Source: an uncultured SAR86 cluster bacterium
GTDB taxonomy: Bacteria; Pseudomonadota; Gammaproteobacteria; Magnimaribacterales; D2472
Direction of reading: 5' to 3'
DNA length: 64,000 nucleotides
Assembly (NCBI GenBank): GCA_905478015.1
Contig: CAJQGY010000010.1
Location: forward strand, 1-64,000
The position numbers and the translations under genes are program-made. A model generated the notes under the pieces. The model saw only the letters and a list, made by a program, of their open reading frames with translations, was not told the origin of the DNA and made no database searches. Below are positions 23,375 through 33,229 of the stretch, in pieces. Position 1 is the stretch's first letter, and each line of letters opens with the position of its first letter.

Positions 23375-24487
23375 TTATATTAATTTATTTTCGTTATTTA
23401 TCCTAAGTACTATTGCTACTAAAGACATCATTATAATTATGCTTGTTCCTCCATAACTTATAAAAGGAAGTGTTAGTCCTTTTGTAGGAAGTAGTCCTAT
23501 ATTGACTGCAATATTAAATAAAGATTGGGAAGCAAATAGCATCATTGTTCCAAAACAGACTAAACCTTGAAATATTCTTCCTAAATTAATGCTATTTATA
23601 GCAACTTTTGTAATGCCAAAAAATAAAATTATGTATGTGGCTATTAAAATGATGCCACCTATAACACCCAACTCTTCTACCAAAATTGCAAATATAAAAT
23701 CTGTATGAGCTTCCGGTAAAAAGAAGTTTTTTTGAAAGCTATTTCCAAGCCCTAATCCAGTCCAACCCCCTTGACCAATGCTTATTAAAGAATTTGCCAG
23801 TTGATATCCACTTCCTAAAACAACCTCTGAGTCAAATGGATCCATGAAAGCCATCATTCTTGCAATACGCATTGGTGAAGTAGAGATAGCAGCAATACCC
23901 AAAAGAAGAATAAGAACTGAAAGAAGAAAAAACTGAAAAAATGATATGCCTGCATAGAATAAGATAGCAACAACTACTAAACATATGATTGCAGTAGAAC
24001 CAAGGTCTGGTTGAGACATGATCAATAAAGATATAATTGATAGAAGCGTTAAAGGCTTTAAAAAATTTCTTAGTGAATAGAGTTCAGATGATCTTCGATA
24101 ACAATATCCTGAAATATAAATTATGAGGCTGAATTTACAAATTTCTGATGGCTGGATGCCTATTGAACCAAACCTAATCCACCTTATACTTCCATTGACT
24201 GATGACCCAATATCAGGGATAAAAAGAGCAATAAGTAAAAATATACTAATTAAAATTAGCAGCCAGTCTATTTTTAAAAGAAAGCTAGATGGAATTATCA
24301 AAAATATAGACATTGATATTAAGCCTACTGAAACAAATAATAACTGGCGAGAAATATAATGAAAAGGGTCTGCAGTTTGGGCTTCTGCAATGAAGATGCT
24401 TGCAGATGAAATCATGACCAGGCCAAGTAAAACTAAAAAAATAAATGGAAAGATTATTAAGTAGTTATTTTTATCTATACTACTCAT
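23375..24487 (-). CDS. ftsW: Septal peptidoglycan polymerase FtsW (SEDS)
   Basis: A polytopic SEDS-family glycosyltransferase polymerising lipid II at the septum with FtsI. It has 370 residues and about ten membrane helices. Conserved SEDS pieces include RWIRFGSIGIQPSEICKFSL, MSQPDLGSTAII, RMMAFMDPFDSEVVLGSGYQLANSLISIGQGGWTGLGLGNS and LPEAHTDFIFAILVEELG, and the C-terminal LPTKGLTLPFISYGGTS. Overlaps the murD stop by four bases. Confidence 0.96.
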   Translation of the reverse strand: MSSIDKNNYLIIFPFIFLVLLGLVMISSASIFIAEAQTADPFHYISRQLLFVSVGLISMSIFLIIPSSFLLKIDWLLILISIFLLIALFIPDIGSSVNGSIRWIRFGSIGIQPSEICKFSLIIYISGYCYRRSSELYSLRNFLKPLTLLSIISLLIMSQPDLGSTAIICLVVVAILFYAGISFFQFFLLSVLILLLGIAAISTSPMRIARMMAFMDPFDSEVVLGSGYQLANSLISIGQGGWTGLGLGNSFQKNFFLPEAHTDFIFAILVEELGVIGGIILIATYIILFFGITKVAINSINLGRIFQGLVCFGTMMLFASQSLFNIAVNIGLLPTKGLTLPFISYGGTSIIIMMSLVAIVLRINNENKLI

Positions 24488-25515
24488 AACTTCTTTTCTT
24501 TGATTAATTGATTAAAGTGATTCCCTCTTTCCTCAAAATTTTTGTAATCTAAACCACTTGGAAAGCCGGGAGAGAAAAGGATACCTATGTCTTTGCTTAA
24601 ATCTTTAACGTAATCCAGTGTGCTCTCTAAGTCATTAAAAACTTTTGAGTTGCTGTGAATAATGCACTCCAACAAACTATCTGAATGCTTTCCAAAAATA
24701 AGAACTTGTGAGGGGCTTGAAATATGCAGCTCAGGATAATCTTCTTTCTTGGGATCACCACATATTAGTAAGATAAAGTCTTTATGATCAAAATAGGTGC
24801 TTGCTTTATTAAGAGCATATTTTAACGAATGATTATTAGTAGACTTTGAATCATTAATAATATTTTTAGAAATATGTTCATACCTATAGGGTAAATTTTT
24901 TAAATTAAACCTTTTACTTTGAACTCCTGTAATCCATGAGGAGAGAGCATATGGATTAACTTCATCGCTAAATTTCTTTGCATTTCTAATTTTTTGCTTT
25001 GCATTAAAATAATCATCAAAGCTTCCATGATAATCTAAATGATCTGGTTCAATGTTTAGGAGAACACCATAGTCAAGAGTATTGAGCTTCATTTTATCAA
25101 GCTGAAAGCTTGAAAGTTCTATGATTGTATATTCCGCTCCATTATTAATAAAATCGAGAACTGGATTTCCAATATTACCAGCTAAATTTACTTCAAAATC
25201 TTCTTCCATGATTTGAGACAAATGAAAGCATATTGTGCTTTTACCATTTGTACCTGTGATGCCAATTTTAATTGATCTATCTTCTTTAAAAAAAACATCC
25301 ATGTCTGTAAATACTTCTGAATGAGCATTAAGGTCATCAAATATTTTTCTTGGAATTCCAGGACTGCAATAAACTTGATCATAATCTTTGATGTTATATT
25401 TAAAATTATATTTTTTTAAATTTATATCGTATATATCAAAACTGATATCTTTTTTTCTTAAATATTTTTTAAAGGACTGGCCTGTCTTACCAAAACCATA
25501 AATCAAAGCTTTCAT
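24484..25515 (-). CDS. murD: UDP-MurNAc-L-Ala--D-glutamate ligase, reduced form
   Basis: Adds D-glutamate to UDP-MurNAc-L-Ala. Only 343 residues, against 438 in E. coli. The ATP loop GITGTNGKST (85-94), NIEPDHLDYHGSFDDYF, the lysine expected to be carbamylated (in NAKQKIRNAKK), INDSKSTN (220-227) and the C-terminal FSPGFPS and NFEERGNHF are all present. About 65 residues of the central domain are missing between Lys181 and Arg211 (24883-24975). The N-terminal UDP-binding domain is also compact. There is no stop or frameshift, and the start and stop fit tightly between mraY and ftsW, so I regard it as a functional minimal MurD. Confidence 0.9.
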   Translation of the reverse strand: MKALIYGFGKTGQSFKKYLRKKDISFDIYDINLKKYNFKYNIKDYDQVYCSPGIPRKIFDDLNAHSEVFTDMDVFFKEDRSIKIGITGTNGKSTICFHLSQIMEEDFEVNLAGNIGNPVLDFINNGAEYTIIELSSFQLDKMKLNTLDYGVLLNIEPDHLDYHGSFDDYFNAKQKIRNAKKFSDEVNPYALSSWITGVQSKRFNLKNLPYRYEHISKNIINDSKSTNNHSLKYALNKASTYFDHKDFILLICGDPKKEDYPELHISSPSQVLIFGKHSDSLLECIIHSNSKVFNDLESTLDYVKDLSKDIGILFSPGFPSGLDYKNFEERGNHFNQLIKEKKL

Positions 25516-26610: not shown

Positions 26611-27937
26611 CTATAAACCTTTCCATTTTCATGCCTCTTGATCCTTTTATTAAAATGACATCATTTGATTTTACATTGTTATTTATGAAATGTTTTAAAT
26701 CTGCCTCATTCTCAAAAAAATATCCTTGGTTAGAAAAGCTATCTAGAGAAAACTTAGTATATTTTCCATAACCAACAAATATATCAATGCCCTTTCTGCT
26801 TGCAAGAAAACCAACATCTTCATGAAATTTCCTAGACTTCAATCCTAGTTCTAACATATCCCCAAGGATAAGAATTTTTCTACCCTCAAAAGATGATAGA
26901 AGATCAATACTTTTTTTAACTGAATCTGGGTTGGCGTTATAACTATCATCAATAAGTATAGAATTATTAATCCACTTAATCTTATTTAATCTAGTTGTAT
27001 GTTGATCTATAAATTCAATCTTCTTCTTAAAATAGTTATTACTGTTTTTTACTAAAAAGCTTACTGCATAGCAGAATAAAATATTAGTAATATTATGTTT
27101 TCCTAAAAGATCAGTTTTTATATCAAGTTTAATATCAAACTTCTTAGATATGATTGTGAATGTGGTAGTGAGAGTGCTTGCTATTTCACTTGCATAAATA
27201 TCACAAGTGTCATCAAGGCCAACTGTAATTAGTTTAATGTCTTCTCTAATACTCTTCCAATAACTAAGATACTTTTTATTATTACCTGGCACAATGAGGT
27301 ATCCATTCTTCCGTATATTGCCTACCAACTCTGATTTAACCTTCAATACACCATCAAGGTTTTTAAGTTTTTCTAGATGCGAGTTACCTATATTGGTTAT
27401 AACACCTATATTTGGCTTCGCAATTGAACTTAAATAATCAATATCGCCCATTTTTGCAGCACCCATTTCTAAAATAATGTGCTTAGAGTATCTATCAGCA
27501 TTCATTATGCTTAATGGCATACCTATTTCATTATTAAAGTTATTTATTGTTCCAGATGCTGAGAGCAAGGTTTTTTTTAATATTTTTGTAGTAGTCGTCT
27601 TGCCATTACTCCCAGTTATTCCTATTATATTTCCATCAAATTCCTTTAATATTTTTTTTGAAATTTCCTTTAAAGCCAAAATACTATCAGGAACATAAAA
27701 AATATTTTTATGAATGTCTGTATCATCTTTACGGTCTGTAATAATAATGCTTGCTCCTCTTTCCAATGCATCATTTTTAAAATCATTACCATCAAAATTA
27801 TTTCCTCTAATGCAAATAAATAAAGATGAATCGATAATATTCCTAGAATCAATTGATATCTCTTTAATATCTCTTGATATAGGTATATTTATATTTAGAT
27901 AGTGTGCTAGCTCCTCTGAATTAGATATAAATTTCAT
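26603..27937 (-). CDS. murF: UDP-MurNAc-tripeptide--D-Ala-D-Ala ligase
   Basis: Adds the D-Ala-D-Ala dipeptide made by Ddl. The 444-residue Mur ligase has the N-terminal substrate domain DSRNIIDSSLFICIRGNNFDGNDF, the ATP loop GITGSNGKTTTTK, NIGNSHLEKL, and the C-terminal NSILIDDSYNANPDSVKKSI and LILGDMLELG. It overlaps the murE end by 17 bases and mraY by eight, as usual in dcw clusters. Confidence 0.96.
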   Translation of the reverse strand: MKFISNSEELAHYLNINIPISRDIKEISIDSRNIIDSSLFICIRGNNFDGNDFKNDALERGASIIITDRKDDTDIHKNIFYVPDSILALKEISKKILKEFDGNIIGITGSNGKTTTTKILKKTLLSASGTINNFNNEIGMPLSIMNADRYSKHIILEMGAAKMGDIDYLSSIAKPNIGVITNIGNSHLEKLKNLDGVLKVKSELVGNIRKNGYLIVPGNNKKYLSYWKSIREDIKLITVGLDDTCDIYASEIASTLTTTFTIISKKFDIKLDIKTDLLGKHNITNILFCYAVSFLVKNSNNYFKKKIEFIDQHTTRLNKIKWINNSILIDDSYNANPDSVKKSIDLLSSFEGRKILILGDMLELGLKSRKFHEDVGFLASRKGIDIFVGYGKYTKFSLDSFSNQGYFFENEADLKHFINNNVKSNDVILIKGSRGMKMERFIDV

Positions 27938-29348
27938 TCACCGCCTCATGATCGCTAAAGTGTTTCTTTTTTCCATTTTTTTCTTGAGTAACTTCATGAC
28001 CCTTGCCTAAGATAATCAAACAGTCACTCTCTTCAAGTTGCCTTAAGCCTTCTCGGATAGCAAGTTTTCTATCCTCTATAATAACAACATTATTAATATC
28101 ATTGCCTATAGATGCGTCTTTAAATATCAAATCAAAGGATTCTGTTCTACTATTATCAGATGTAAAAATTACTAAATCAGAATATCTTAAAGCTATCTCA
28201 AGCATTAAAGCTCTTTTTTTTCTATCTCTATCCCCGCCGCATCCAAAGACACACACGAGTTTGTTAAAATGACCTTGAACTGAGCTTAGAACATTCTTAA
28301 AGCCATCTGCATTATGAGCATAGTCAATGATTACATTCTTTGTTATGTTTTGAATAAAATCCATTCTCCCCTTTGGCATTCTTAATTTATTTGTTTGCAC
28401 ATTAGTAAAATCTATATTTTTATATGTATTCAGAATTGAAATAACTGCGAAAGAAAAATTTAAAATATTAAAATTTGGAAATATTTTTGTCGAAAATGAC
28501 AATAATTGATCATAATATTTCAAAGAGAAGATAGAGTTTTTGATATCACATTTATTTATAGAGAGAAAAAAATCACATGACTCATCTACCTGACTAAATG
28601 ACTTAAATTTAGATTTTCCTAAATTTTTATATTCATTTTTAATATTGATAGAATCTACATTAATAATTACATTATTATCTAAAGTGGTATTAGAAATCAT
28701 AAATTTCGAAGCAATGTAGTTTTCAATAGTTTGATGATAATCTAAATGATCGCTTTCAATATTTAATATTGAAGAAACATCAAAATTGAGACTATTTAAT
28801 CTATTTTGTTGCAAGGCATGAGAAGATACCTCAAGACAAATATTTTGGATGCCTTCTGATTTATTCTGAAATAGGAAATAAAGGACTGTAAAAATATCTG
28901 GTGTTGTATTTCTAGTTTCCTGGAATGCATCTAATGAATTGCATAAAAAACCAAGTGTTCCCATATATATAGAGTTCATATTTAGAGTCATTAGAATCTG
29001 GTGGCATAGATATGCGGAAGTTGTTTTTCCATTTGTTCCTGTAAATCCAAAGAATTTATATTTTGATAAGTTAATTTCGTAAAGCTCATTAAGAAATGGA
29101 AGGATTTGATCTTCAAGATCATTTACAAAATAAATATTTCTTTCTTCCGATGAATAATTTGGGTCATCATGGAAGACTATAAAAGCGCCATTGTCTATTG
29201 CATCATTAATAAATTCTGAGCCATGACAATTTCCGCCACTAAGCGCAAAGAATACTGAATTTTTTTTAACATCTTTGGAAAAACTAGTTGCATGAGGCAT
29301 TTCATCTTTTATTTTTATATTTTCTAAAAATTTGGTAATTTTTATCAC
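27921..29348 (-). CDS. murE: UDP-MurNAc-dipeptide--diamino acid ligase
   Basis: Adds the third stem-peptide residue, expected to be meso-diaminopimelate. The 475-residue protein has the ATP loop GFTGTNGKTTSAYL, EVSSHALQQNRL, NIESDHLDYH, GRMDFI, IDYAHNADG and VFGCGGDRDRKKRALM. The DAP-specificity motif, DNPR in E. coli, reads DNSR (398-401, bases 28146-28157): the Arg and Asn are kept but Pro is Ser. It lies directly after ftsI and overlaps murF. Confidence 0.95.
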   Translation of the reverse strand: MIKITKFLENIKIKDEMPHATSFSKDVKKNSVFFALSGGNCHGSEFINDAIDNGAFIVFHDDPNYSSEERNIYFVNDLEDQILPFLNELYEINLSKYKFFGFTGTNGKTTSAYLCHQILMTLNMNSIYMGTLGFLCNSLDAFQETRNTTPDIFTVLYFLFQNKSEGIQNICLEVSSHALQQNRLNSLNFDVSSILNIESDHLDYHQTIENYIASKFMISNTTLDNNVIINVDSINIKNEYKNLGKSKFKSFSQVDESCDFFLSINKCDIKNSIFSLKYYDQLLSFSTKIFPNFNILNFSFAVISILNTYKNIDFTNVQTNKLRMPKGRMDFIQNITKNVIIDYAHNADGFKNVLSSVQGHFNKLVCVFGCGGDRDRKKRALMLEIALRYSDLVIFTSDNSRTESFDLIFKDASIGNDINNVVIIEDRKLAIREGLRQLEESDCLIILGKGHEVTQEKNGKKKHFSDHEAVNEIYI

Positions 29349-29349
29349 T

Positions 29350-30957
29350 TCAATAACCCAGATAATTTAAAGAACTATCAGCAATTTTTGAAAAAATAGG
29401 TGCCGCTACAGCACCCCCTGAGTAAGAGTTTAGATTTGGATCATCTACAGAAACTAGTATTGTTAATGAATTTTTTTGTAATGGTGCAATACCAACAAAA
29501 GATGCTCTATAAGAATCTGACTGATAACCAAATGATGAGACTTTGTGAACTGTTGAAGTTTTACCACCGACATCAAAATTCTTTATATTTGCTAATTTTC
29601 CAGTTCCGTATTCAACTACCTCCGAAAGGGCTTCTAAAATAAAATCAGCTGAATCCTTTGATATAAGATTTCTTTGATTGATATGGGTACCTTTAAGTAA
29701 AATAAAATCTTTATATATACCTTCGTTTGCAAAGACGGAATAAGCCGAAGCTAATTGAAATGGGCTTACTTCAAAACCATAACCATAACCAAGAGCTGCA
29801 AGTTCTCTATCACTTATATTATCTTTAAAATTCATATATCCATATGAAGAAGATGGAAAATTGATTGATATGGGTTTAGTAAAGCCAAAATCTAAATAAT
29901 TTTTTTTTAGGCTATCATAGCCTAGCATTAATGCAATTTTTGATGCTCCTACTTGACTGGAGAAGGCAATTATCTCGCTTGGTTTAAGCTCTTTATAATT
30001 CTTTGGGTCACTTATAACTTTATTATTTAAGTTTAATCTTTGGGGTGTCTCTAGGATTTCATTTTTATCTATAATGCTATTATCAATAGCATAAGATATT
30101 GTTATTGGTTTTAAAGCTGATCCAAACTCATAGGCATCAACTAAGGCTCTATTTTTTTGAATAGCTCTCATTGGGTCATTTGGGTTGTATGAAGGATAGC
30201 TTGCGACTGCAAGTATCTCACCACTGGCATTGTCTAGAATTATTACACTGCCTGATTTAGCATCATTACTTTCAATAGCTTCTGCTAGATATTTGTATGC
30301 AAAAAATTGAATGGTCGAATCTATAGTTAAAACTATATCCTTTCCTTGAACTTTTTTTAACACCTCTATGGGTTTAGAAATTATTTCTTGTTTAGCATTT
30401 TTATATAATTTTTCTCTGCCATCTGAGCCAGATAGCAAATAATCATAGCTTTTTTCTAAACCCTCTTGAGGGCCATCTTTTCCATAGAATCCAATTAAGG
30501 GAGATATCTGATTTCCAAGTGGATAATGTCTGCTATGTCTTATCTCTACCTCTAGCCTATTAAAGTTTAAATTTTTAATGATTGAGTTCTCTGCAGCAGA
30601 AATATTCTTCTTTAACAAAGTTTTTTTTAAAAATTTTTTCTTATTGAGGTGATTGCTAGGTATATCAATTTTATGTCTTAAGGTTTGTAATTTTTCTGAG
30701 TTAAATCCACTAAGCGCATAAAGATCATAATTAACAATTGATATTGCCAATGGAAAATTATTTCTGTCGTAAATGCCTCCCCTTACTGCTTTGGTTTCCC
30801 TATATTTTATATATCTTTTTTTACCTTCTTTTTGAAGGAAAACTCCTTCTGAAACACTGAGAGATATTAATTTAGATGCAACTGCAATTGCACAAACTAT
30901 CAATGTTGCGCAAGCAATAATAAGCCTTAAATTTAATAATTTATTCTTCTGTTGCAT
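29350..30957 (-). CDS. ftsI: Septal transpeptidase FtsI (PBP3) with altered motifs
   Basis: Crosslinks septal peptidoglycan. The 535-residue protein has an N-terminal membrane anchor (about 11-32), the pedestal region (RGGIYDRNNFPLA; PQEGLEKSYD) and a transpeptidase domain from about 200. The catalytic Ser280 and Lys283 are in EFGSALKPIT. The second motif, SxN in nearly all PBPs, reads SSQ (333-335, bases 29953-29961). The third, KTG/KSG, reads KTS (466-468, bases 29554-29562). Each change needs at least two base substitutions, so sequencing error is unlikely. No PASTA domain. Overlaps ftsL by 17 bases. Confidence 0.93.
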   Translation of the reverse strand: MQQKNKLLNLRLIIACATLIVCAIAVASKLISLSVSEGVFLQKEGKKRYIKYRETKAVRGGIYDRNNFPLAISIVNYDLYALSGFNSEKLQTLRHKIDIPSNHLNKKKFLKKTLLKKNISAAENSIIKNLNFNRLEVEIRHSRHYPLGNQISPLIGFYGKDGPQEGLEKSYDYLLSGSDGREKLYKNAKQEIISKPIEVLKKVQGKDIVLTIDSTIQFFAYKYLAEAIESNDAKSGSVIILDNASGEILAVASYPSYNPNDPMRAIQKNRALVDAYEFGSALKPITISYAIDNSIIDKNEILETPQRLNLNNKVISDPKNYKELKPSEIIAFSSQVGASKIALMLGYDSLKKNYLDFGFTKPISINFPSSSYGYMNFKDNISDRELAALGYGYGFEVSPFQLASAYSVFANEGIYKDFILLKGTHINQRNLISKDSADFILEALSEVVEYGTGKLANIKNFDVGGKTSTVHKVSSFGYQSDSYRASFVGIAPLQKNSLTILVSVDDPNLNSYSGGAVAAPIFSKIADSSLNYLGY

Positions 30958-31222
30958 TAATTATAATTATTTTGGGTTTTTGTTTGGACATTCCAAGCAC
31001 CTCTTTTGACTGTTTTTCGATTATTCCTACTGCGTTTTCAGCATGGTATTGAGTTTGAAGTTTTAAATTAAGATCTTTAAATCTTTGGTACTCAATTTGT
31101 AAATTTTCATTATTTAGATGAAGCTTTGATATCTCCCATGAAAGCTTCACCTTTTCTAAAGATAGAAAAGTTATTACTAAGGAAAGCGATGCTATGAAGA
31201 AAAGATTTAAATTAAGTTTCAT
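30941..31222 (-). CDS. ftsL: Cell division protein FtsL
   Basis: A short bitopic protein of 93 residues. It has a hydrophobic anchor (about 5-22) followed by a leucine-rich coiled coil (WEISKLHLNNENLQIEYQRFKDLNLKLQTQY) and a conserved-type end, GIIEKQSKEVLGMSKQKPKII. Identification uses topology and its position between rsmH and ftsI, which is invariant in proteobacterial dcw clusters. It would form a trimeric complex with FtsB (10.6 kb) and FtsQ (19.7 kb). Overlaps rsmH by four bases. Confidence 0.88.
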   Translation of the reverse strand: MKLNLNLFFIASLSLVITFLSLEKVKLSWEISKLHLNNENLQIEYQRFKDLNLKLQTQYHAENAVGIIEKQSKEVLGMSKQKPKIIIINATEE

Positions 31223-32113: not shown

Positions 32114-33229
32114 TTAATCTACTTGTTTTCTCATAAAAGTAGGCACATCGAGGAAATTTATTTCCTCTGCAGACGATGTGCCAACTTTTTGACTTGATTG
32201 CTTGTCTCTATTTAACCCAACTGGATTTAATTTAATAGAGGGTTGATGATTATCTATAGCAAGTGCTGGGCCTCTTTGATCAACTCCTGTTGCAACAATA
32301 GTTACAAGAAGATCTTCCTCTACTGAGTTATCGTAAACCAAACCATAGATAATATTAGCTTCCTCGCTACAAATTTCATCAACTATATCTGCTACATCTG
32401 TTTGATCATTTAAAGTAGGTTCTTTTGCAGTTATGTTAACTAATACTCCACGAGCATTCTTAAGATTGATGTCTTCCAGTAATTCACTTTTTACTGCTTG
32501 AGTGGCTGCTTCTATTGCTCTATCTTTTCCATTAGATCTACCTGTGCCCATCATTGCAATACCTTTTTCTGACATGACGGTTTTTACATCAGCAAAATCA
32601 ACATTAATGTGACCCTTCTTCATAATGATATCTGATATGCCCTGAACAGCACCTTTAAGCACATCATCTGCTTTAGCAAATGCTTCTTGCATAGGTGTAT
32701 TACCACCTAGAATTTCATAAAGTTTTTGATTTGGGATAGTGATTAAGCTGTCAACCTCCTCAACAAGTGATGCTAAGCCTTTCTCAGCTGCTGACATTCT
32801 TCTTTTTCCTTCAAATTTAAATGGCTTTGTTACCACTGCAACAGTCAAAGCACCCATTTCTTTTGCTATAGATGCAATAACTGGAGCAGCCCCTGTTCCA
32901 GTTCCGCCACCCATGCCTGCTGTAATAAAAATCATATCTGCTCCAGATAGCAATTCTTCGATTGCTCCTCTATCGCTCTCGGCTGCTTTTCTTCCTATAT
33001 CAGGATCTGCGCCTGCGCCTAAGCCCTTTGTTAAACCATTTCCAAGCTTTAACGAGATGGCTCCATTTGCCTCAGATAGGGCCTGTGTATCGGTATTGGC
33101 GCAAATAAAATCAACTCCGTCAATGTTATGATTGATCATATGGATCACAGCATTTCCACCTGCACCTCCAACACCAACAACTTTTATTTTTGCATTTTCA
33201 ATTTCTTGTCCAATAACTTCCCAATTCAT
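32114..33229 (-). CDS. ftsZ: Cell division GTPase FtsZ (relocated)
   Basis: The tubulin-like Z-ring protein, 371 residues. The N-terminal region KVVGVGGAGGNAVIHM, the tubulin signature GGGTGTGAAPVIA, and the T7 region FADVKTVMSEKGIAMMGTG are present. The C-terminal conserved peptide FLDVPTFMRKQVD, which binds FtsA and ZipA, is intact after a short linker. It lies second in the dcw cluster, between mraZ and rsmH. In E. coli, Pseudomonas and most proteobacteria it is last, after ftsA. Three MraZ-box-like repeats upstream of mraZ would then control ftsZ closely. Confidence 0.97.
   Translation of the reverse strand: MNWEVIGQEIENAKIKVVGVGGAGGNAVIHMINHNIDGVDFICANTDTQALSEANGAISLKLGNGLTKGLGAGADPDIGRKAAESDRGAIEELLSGADMIFITAGMGGGTGTGAAPVIASIAKEMGALTVAVVTKPFKFEGKRRMSAAEKGLASLVEEVDSLITIPNQKLYEILGGNTPMQEAFAKADDVLKGAVQGISDIIMKKGHINVDFADVKTVMSEKGIAMMGTGRSNGKDRAIEAATQAVKSELLEDINLKNARGVLVNITAKEPTLNDQTDVADIVDEICSEEANIIYGLVYDNSVEEDLLVTIVATGVDQRGPALAIDNHQPSIKLNPVGLNRDKQSSQKVGTSSAEEINFLDVPTFMRKQVD

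Follow-up and report, generated by a model that had tools for sequence, protein, structure and literature searches.

A SAR86 FtsI with glutamine and serine in place of the conserved asparagine and glycine of its active-site motifs

The Asn of the SxN motif and the Gly of the K[S/T]G motif are near-invariant in penicillin-binding enzymes. Both are replaced in the cell division protein FtsI encoded in a 64,000-nucleotide stretch of DNA (hereafter the window) from a SAR86 gammaproteobacterium, whose genome of 1.07 Mb is a MAG in 95 contigs and is 84.5% complete. This raises the question of whether the protein is an enzyme with a changed active site, a protein that has lost its activity, or a product of faulty assembly. 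We conclude that it is most likely a working, essential enzyme, neither inactive nor misassembled. The more specific reading, that it is a septal D,D-transpeptidase (FtsI/PBP3) in which the substrate-binding edge changed in two successive steps, is the one that we consider probable.

The assignment of the open reading frame to FtsI, originally made from the sequence, was borne out by its domains, its fold and its position in the dcw cluster (Table 1). A profile search found a transpeptidase domain (PF00905, E=1.8e-50) and a dimerisation domain (PF03717 PBP_dimer, E=2.1e-10), the two domains expected of the FtsI orthologue group. The gene lies directly upstream of murE, as it does in the SAR86 dcw loci that we compared. 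The AlphaFold model, a check that the original prediction had called for, is confident (mean pLDDT 91.1) and PBP3-like, with P. aeruginosa PBP3 as its best PDB match (TM ~0.8); it has a predicted N-terminal membrane helix (residues 2-49), the SSQ motif begins helix 335-345, and the KTS motif falls within strand 464-472. By sequence, the strongest PDB matches were gonococcal-type PBP2 proteins, in which SSN and KTG stand opposite the SSQ and KTS of the window protein. The FtsI-specific NCBIfam model PRK15105.1 scored 246.8 bits, below its cut-off of 737; since this cut-off appears to be tuned for near kin of E. coli FtsI, orthology rests on the domains, the position, the fold and the distinctness from MrdA, which is encoded by a separate gene on a different contig, adjoining a RodA-like gene. 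Between rsmH and ftsI we found a probable ftsL, the start of which overlaps the rsmH stop and the end of which overlaps the ftsI start; no sequence match between its product and E. coli FtsL was obtained.

Table 1. Genes of the dcw locus in the window and active-site motifs of FtsI
Feature	Position	Strand	Description
ftsI	29350..30957	-	PBP3-type class B penicillin-binding protein, septal D,D-transpeptidase; 535 aa; assigned by domain, fold and position
FtsI motif 1, S280-A-L-K283 (GSALKP)	30109..30120	-	Nucleophile Ser and general-base Lys; intact; corresponds to E. coli S307-K310
FtsI motif 2, SSQ for SSN	29953..29961	-	Residues 333-335 (TCC AGT CAA); corresponds to E. coli S359-N361
FtsI motif 3, KTS for KTG	29554..29562	-	Residues 466-468 (AAA ACT TCA); corresponds to E. 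coli K494-G496
Probable ftsL	30941..31222	-	93 aa; assigned by its size and place and by a single hydrophobic stretch near the N-terminus
murE	27921..29348	-	TIGR01085 above cut-off; DNSR replaces DNPR
ftsZ	32114..33229	-	TIGR00065 above cut-off; between mraZ and rsmH
mraZ-ftsZ-rsmH	32114-33710		Gene order of the window family
murD	24484-25515		Small MurD

The motifs were placed by alignment with E. coli FtsI (b0084) and ~190 other FtsI sequences. This confirmed the motif readings and coordinates of the original prediction and ruled out the concern, raised together with it, that the true motifs are misplaced or lie elsewhere in the protein. The SxxK part of the canonical active-site signature is present, and it is kept in every relative readable across this stretch; SxN and K[S/T]G are replaced, with Q335 aligning with E. 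coli N361 and S468 with G496. At motif 2 the codons are CAA or CAG (Gln) as compared to AAT or AAC (Asn), and at motif 3 the codon is TCA as compared to GGN. Each replacement takes two base substitutions (AAY to CAR and GGA to TCA), as was initially proposed.

To see how far the two changes extend among relatives, we examined FtsI from 10 genera of the window family (f1), from SAR86 families f2, f3 and f4 of the same order, from 80 other Gammaproteobacteria and Alphaproteobacteria, and from E. coli. SSQ was found in 96/96 readable copies of the sister families f1 and f4 (~88 distinct sequences; some genomes were entered twice), which come from many independent single-cell genomes and MAGs, and SSN in 104/104 copies from f2, f3 and the other Pseudomonadota. 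KTS was present in both readable members of the window genus (g1), that is, in two MAGs, and nowhere else in the sample: all 197 FtsI outside the genus carry KTG or (twice) KSG, with Gly throughout at the G496 column. In the second KTS species (G001, JAQWXQ010000056.1) FtsI is 82% identical to that of the window, and the Ser codon is TCA in both; a third member of the genus (G002) has SSQ, and its contig ends ahead of motif 3. Both positions are otherwise invariant among the sampled sequences, in agreement with the near-invariance originally claimed for them, while the question, raised along with that claim, of whether the motifs are fixed in relatives was answered in the affirmative for SSQ in two families and for KTS in the window genus only. 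SxQ may exist beyond the Pseudomonadota that make up this sample.

Across the whole-protein alignment, N361Q is the sole column in which the residue fixed in f1 and f4 differs from the one fixed elsewhere; at columns more than 93% conserved in all others, the window genus departs only by G496S. The pattern is therefore one of two discrete active-site substitutions and not of general decay. No co-varying, compensating residue was found to be fixed in the SSQ clade in the whole FtsI alignment. In one relative (G035:C1:600912-601232) the 5' part of ftsI is broken by several stop codons and adjoins an intact 3' part, an interruption that reflects a frameshift, an assembly error or a genuine lesion.

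Families f1 and f4 are monophyletic in the FtsI tree (FastTree support 0.978), and the same clade was recovered by IQ-TREE on FtsI (topology only) and in an independent tree of the CTP synthase PyrG (UFBoot 100). A single vertical Asn-to-Gln event before the family split is therefore sufficient, and horizontal transfer of an SSQ ftsI between the families is unnecessary. Judging by their distribution, SSQ and KTS differ in age, with SSQ, shared by two families, the older one and KTS limited to a single genus. The originally proposed reshaping of a division transpeptidase thus stands as regards the two substitutions, the intact gene under selection and the fixation of SSQ in a deep clade, but not as one package, since the two changes differ in age and KTG is retained in all the other genera examined. 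Gene order also differs between the families: f1 has mraZ-ftsZ-rsmH and f4 has ftsZ-rsmH, while in f2 and f3 ftsA-ftsZ lies immediately ahead of ftsI. The rearranged dcw cluster (ftsZ ahead of rsmH, not after ftsA) and SSQ map onto the same f1 and f4 branch, a coincidence that we report without a causal claim.

Between the two KTS species, ftsI shows dN 0.104 and dS 1.58, with a dN/dS of 0.066 that is approximate because dS is near saturation. This value is below those of murE, murF and murG and above those of ftsZ, mraY and ftsW, and the transpeptidase domain has a dN/dS of ~0.06. A pseudogene or a decaying gene is ruled out by the intact frame, the low dN/dS and the unchanged state of the other near-invariant sites; together with the kept synteny, the frame and the purifying selection uphold the initial description of the gene as intact inside the dcw cluster.

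A PF00905 search of the window genome returned FtsI, MrdA and PBP1A only, and no second FtsI was found by this search in the 84.5% complete genome. In the elongation paralogue MrdA, both SSN and K[S/T]G are retained in 21/21 genomes (the window genome and 20 relatives of the same family), and PBP1A of the window genome is canonical as well, with SSFK (SxxK), SIN and KTG. The motif change is therefore specific to FtsI, and a genome-wide change across all penicillin-binding proteins is ruled out. The single L,D-transpeptidase-type candidate found in the window genome is a YkuD-domain protein of 178 aa (C56:1110-1574).

It had also been suggested that FtsI, MurD and MurE together hint at a divergent wall chemistry, a package that we reject on comparing MurE, MurD and Ddl among relatives. 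In MurE, which reads DNSR, the Asn and Arg that are used for DAP are unchanged from DNPR, and the GKGHE motif is present as well; moreover, DNSR occurs in all SAR86 copies examined, KTG-bearing genera included, independently of the FtsI motif 3 state. In most f1 genera MurD has 342-356 aa, with ~80-90 residues missing, mainly from the central domain, and with the NDSK and C-terminal motifs retained; in two f4 genomes it has ~357-359 residues. Since MurD is small also in KTG genera and longer (414-449 aa) in the SSQ genera g7 and g10, its size tracks neither of the FtsI motif changes. The YDY[E/D]AKY loop of E. coli DdlB is conserved in Ddl, which, from its sequence, looks like a D-Ala-D-Ala ligase.

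How the two substitutions might act can be considered in the light of studied PBP3 enzymes. N361 of E. coli PBP3, like N351 of the P. aeruginosa enzyme, forms a hydrogen bond with the side-chain amide oxygen of the ligand; the carboxylate or sulfate of the beta-lactam ring is contacted by the motif 3 strand, and the T495-G496 peptide of the E. coli enzyme turns to make room when the ligand binds (PMC8301747). We infer that the window FtsI is active, with Ser280 and Lys283 still acylating and with the donor-gripping edge of the active site changed in two steps. The first step would be the Asn-to-Gln change at the E. coli Asn361 position, in the common ancestor of f1 and f4 and kept since. If, as in E. 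coli PBP3, the equivalent of Asn361 binds the carbonyl of the amide before the scissile D-Ala (naturally the DAP-D-Ala amide), the longer amide of Gln would reach this carbonyl from another place. The second step, in the window genus only, would be the Gly-to-Ser change at the KTG position, on the beta3 strand that is predicted to line the pocket and adjoin the oxyanion hole. Together the two steps would re-tune how the donor peptide and beta-lactams fit, possibly with a changed rate, and would leave the reaction itself as it was.

Counting against this explanation, mutational scanning of the related CTX-M beta-lactamase placed the equivalent positions, Asn132 and Gly236, among the few that tolerate essentially no substitution; the requirement for both is strict with cefotaxime as well as with ampicillin, and any side chain at 236 would be expected to face the Ser70 helix (PMC9837174). 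By this measure an enzyme with both Gln and Ser might be badly impaired. A search of the available literature on SSQ motifs or SAR86 cell walls retrieved nothing relevant, and we found no activity data on an FtsI from SAR86.

The window protein shares with E. coli FtsI and P. aeruginosa PBP3 the membrane helix, the dimerisation (pedestal) domain, the PF00905 fold and the place before murE, as well as SxxK, the first two Ser of motif 2 and the Lys-Thr of motif 3, and differs from them in the third residue of motif 2 (Gln, not Asn) and of motif 3 (Ser, not Gly). The f2 and f3 proteins have the same role within the same taxonomic order at ~30% identity; they keep SSN and KTG, and their dcw clusters have ftsA-ftsZ just before ftsI. 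Natural substitutions at these motifs are also known in Streptomyces clavuligerus (PMC9146315). Its PBP-2 is likewise a penicillin-binding transpeptidase with a substituted motif 3 (FTG), but in that protein it is the Lys that differs, and its gene is part of an antibiotic cluster, whereas in the window it is the third residue that is changed, in the only FtsI found. Its class A beta-lactamase Bla1, of the same superfamily, likewise lacks the motif 2 Asn (Asn132; SDG for SDN), but is a hydrolase with Gly, whereas the window FtsI is a transpeptidase with Gln.

Several other explanations have to be weighed against a re-tuned transpeptidase. Gln and Ser may be equivalent to the ancestral residues in their own background, having drifted to fixation in streamlined genomes without a functional shift. 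The lack of any co-varying fixed position is consistent with such near-neutral replacement, as are the amide that Gln retains and the small size of Ser; nevertheless, Gln occurs in 0/104 of the Asn-bearing relatives, many of them equally diverged, no SSQ lineage reverts, and each change requires two base changes via less likely intermediates (Lys or His; Ala). We consider this explanation rather unlikely.

We also consider it unlikely that the changes lowered beta-lactam acylation as such, with an ancestral SAR86 adapting to beta-lactams in seawater through two drug-contacting positions, one at the amide side chain and one in the carboxylate pocket. The PBP3 contacts described above, with the acyl side chain of a bound beta-lactam and with the ring carboxylate or sulfate, and the CTX-M requirement for the equivalent positions fit this proposal, and beta-lactam producers do have penicillin-binding proteins with altered motifs, such as the S. 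clavuligerus PBP-2. However, with MrdA and PBP1A canonical, protection could be no more than partial, the change is old, with a fixation that extends across genera instead of being patchy, and we found no data on the beta-lactam susceptibility of SAR86. The altered beta-lactam binding originally suggested for the window FtsI is in itself plausible.

That FtsI of the window genus has little or no catalytic activity and serves the divisome as a scaffold, with cross-linking left to PBP1A or to the YkuD protein, seems to us improbable. Such a role would agree with the change of both positions that CTX-M strictly requires and with the presence of one YkuD-domain protein in the genome, but SxxK and every other near-invariant position are intact, as are both Ser of motif 2 and the Lys-Thr of motif 3, the transpeptidase domain is under the purifying selection described above, and a dead enzyme should in time lose its nucleophile or other catalytic residues. 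Finally, although the genome is a fragmented MAG, an assembly or binning artefact is hardly credible and for SSQ largely refuted, given its many independent genome sources, the occurrence of KTS in two species with differing synonymous backgrounds, and the intact synteny.

The re-tuned septal transpeptidase thus remains the reading that we favor. A deep and abundant clade of SAR86 has fixed Gln, and one genus then Ser, in its only known division transpeptidase, and functional FtsI proteins of this kind would be overlooked or misread by annotation that relies on motifs. The natural series SSN/KTG, SSQ/KTG and SSQ/KTS offers a test of the role of each residue in an enzyme that is a target of penicillin. 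It is possible, though we put this forward tentatively, that SAR86 FtsI represents a naturally evolved transpeptidase that can dispense with the Asn of motif 2, and in one genus with the Gly of motif 3 as well, by binding its donor in a changed mode. If so, septal cross-linking in some of the most abundant bacteria of the ocean would have a low intrinsic sensitivity to some beta-lactams, or would work with a donor of a different shape.
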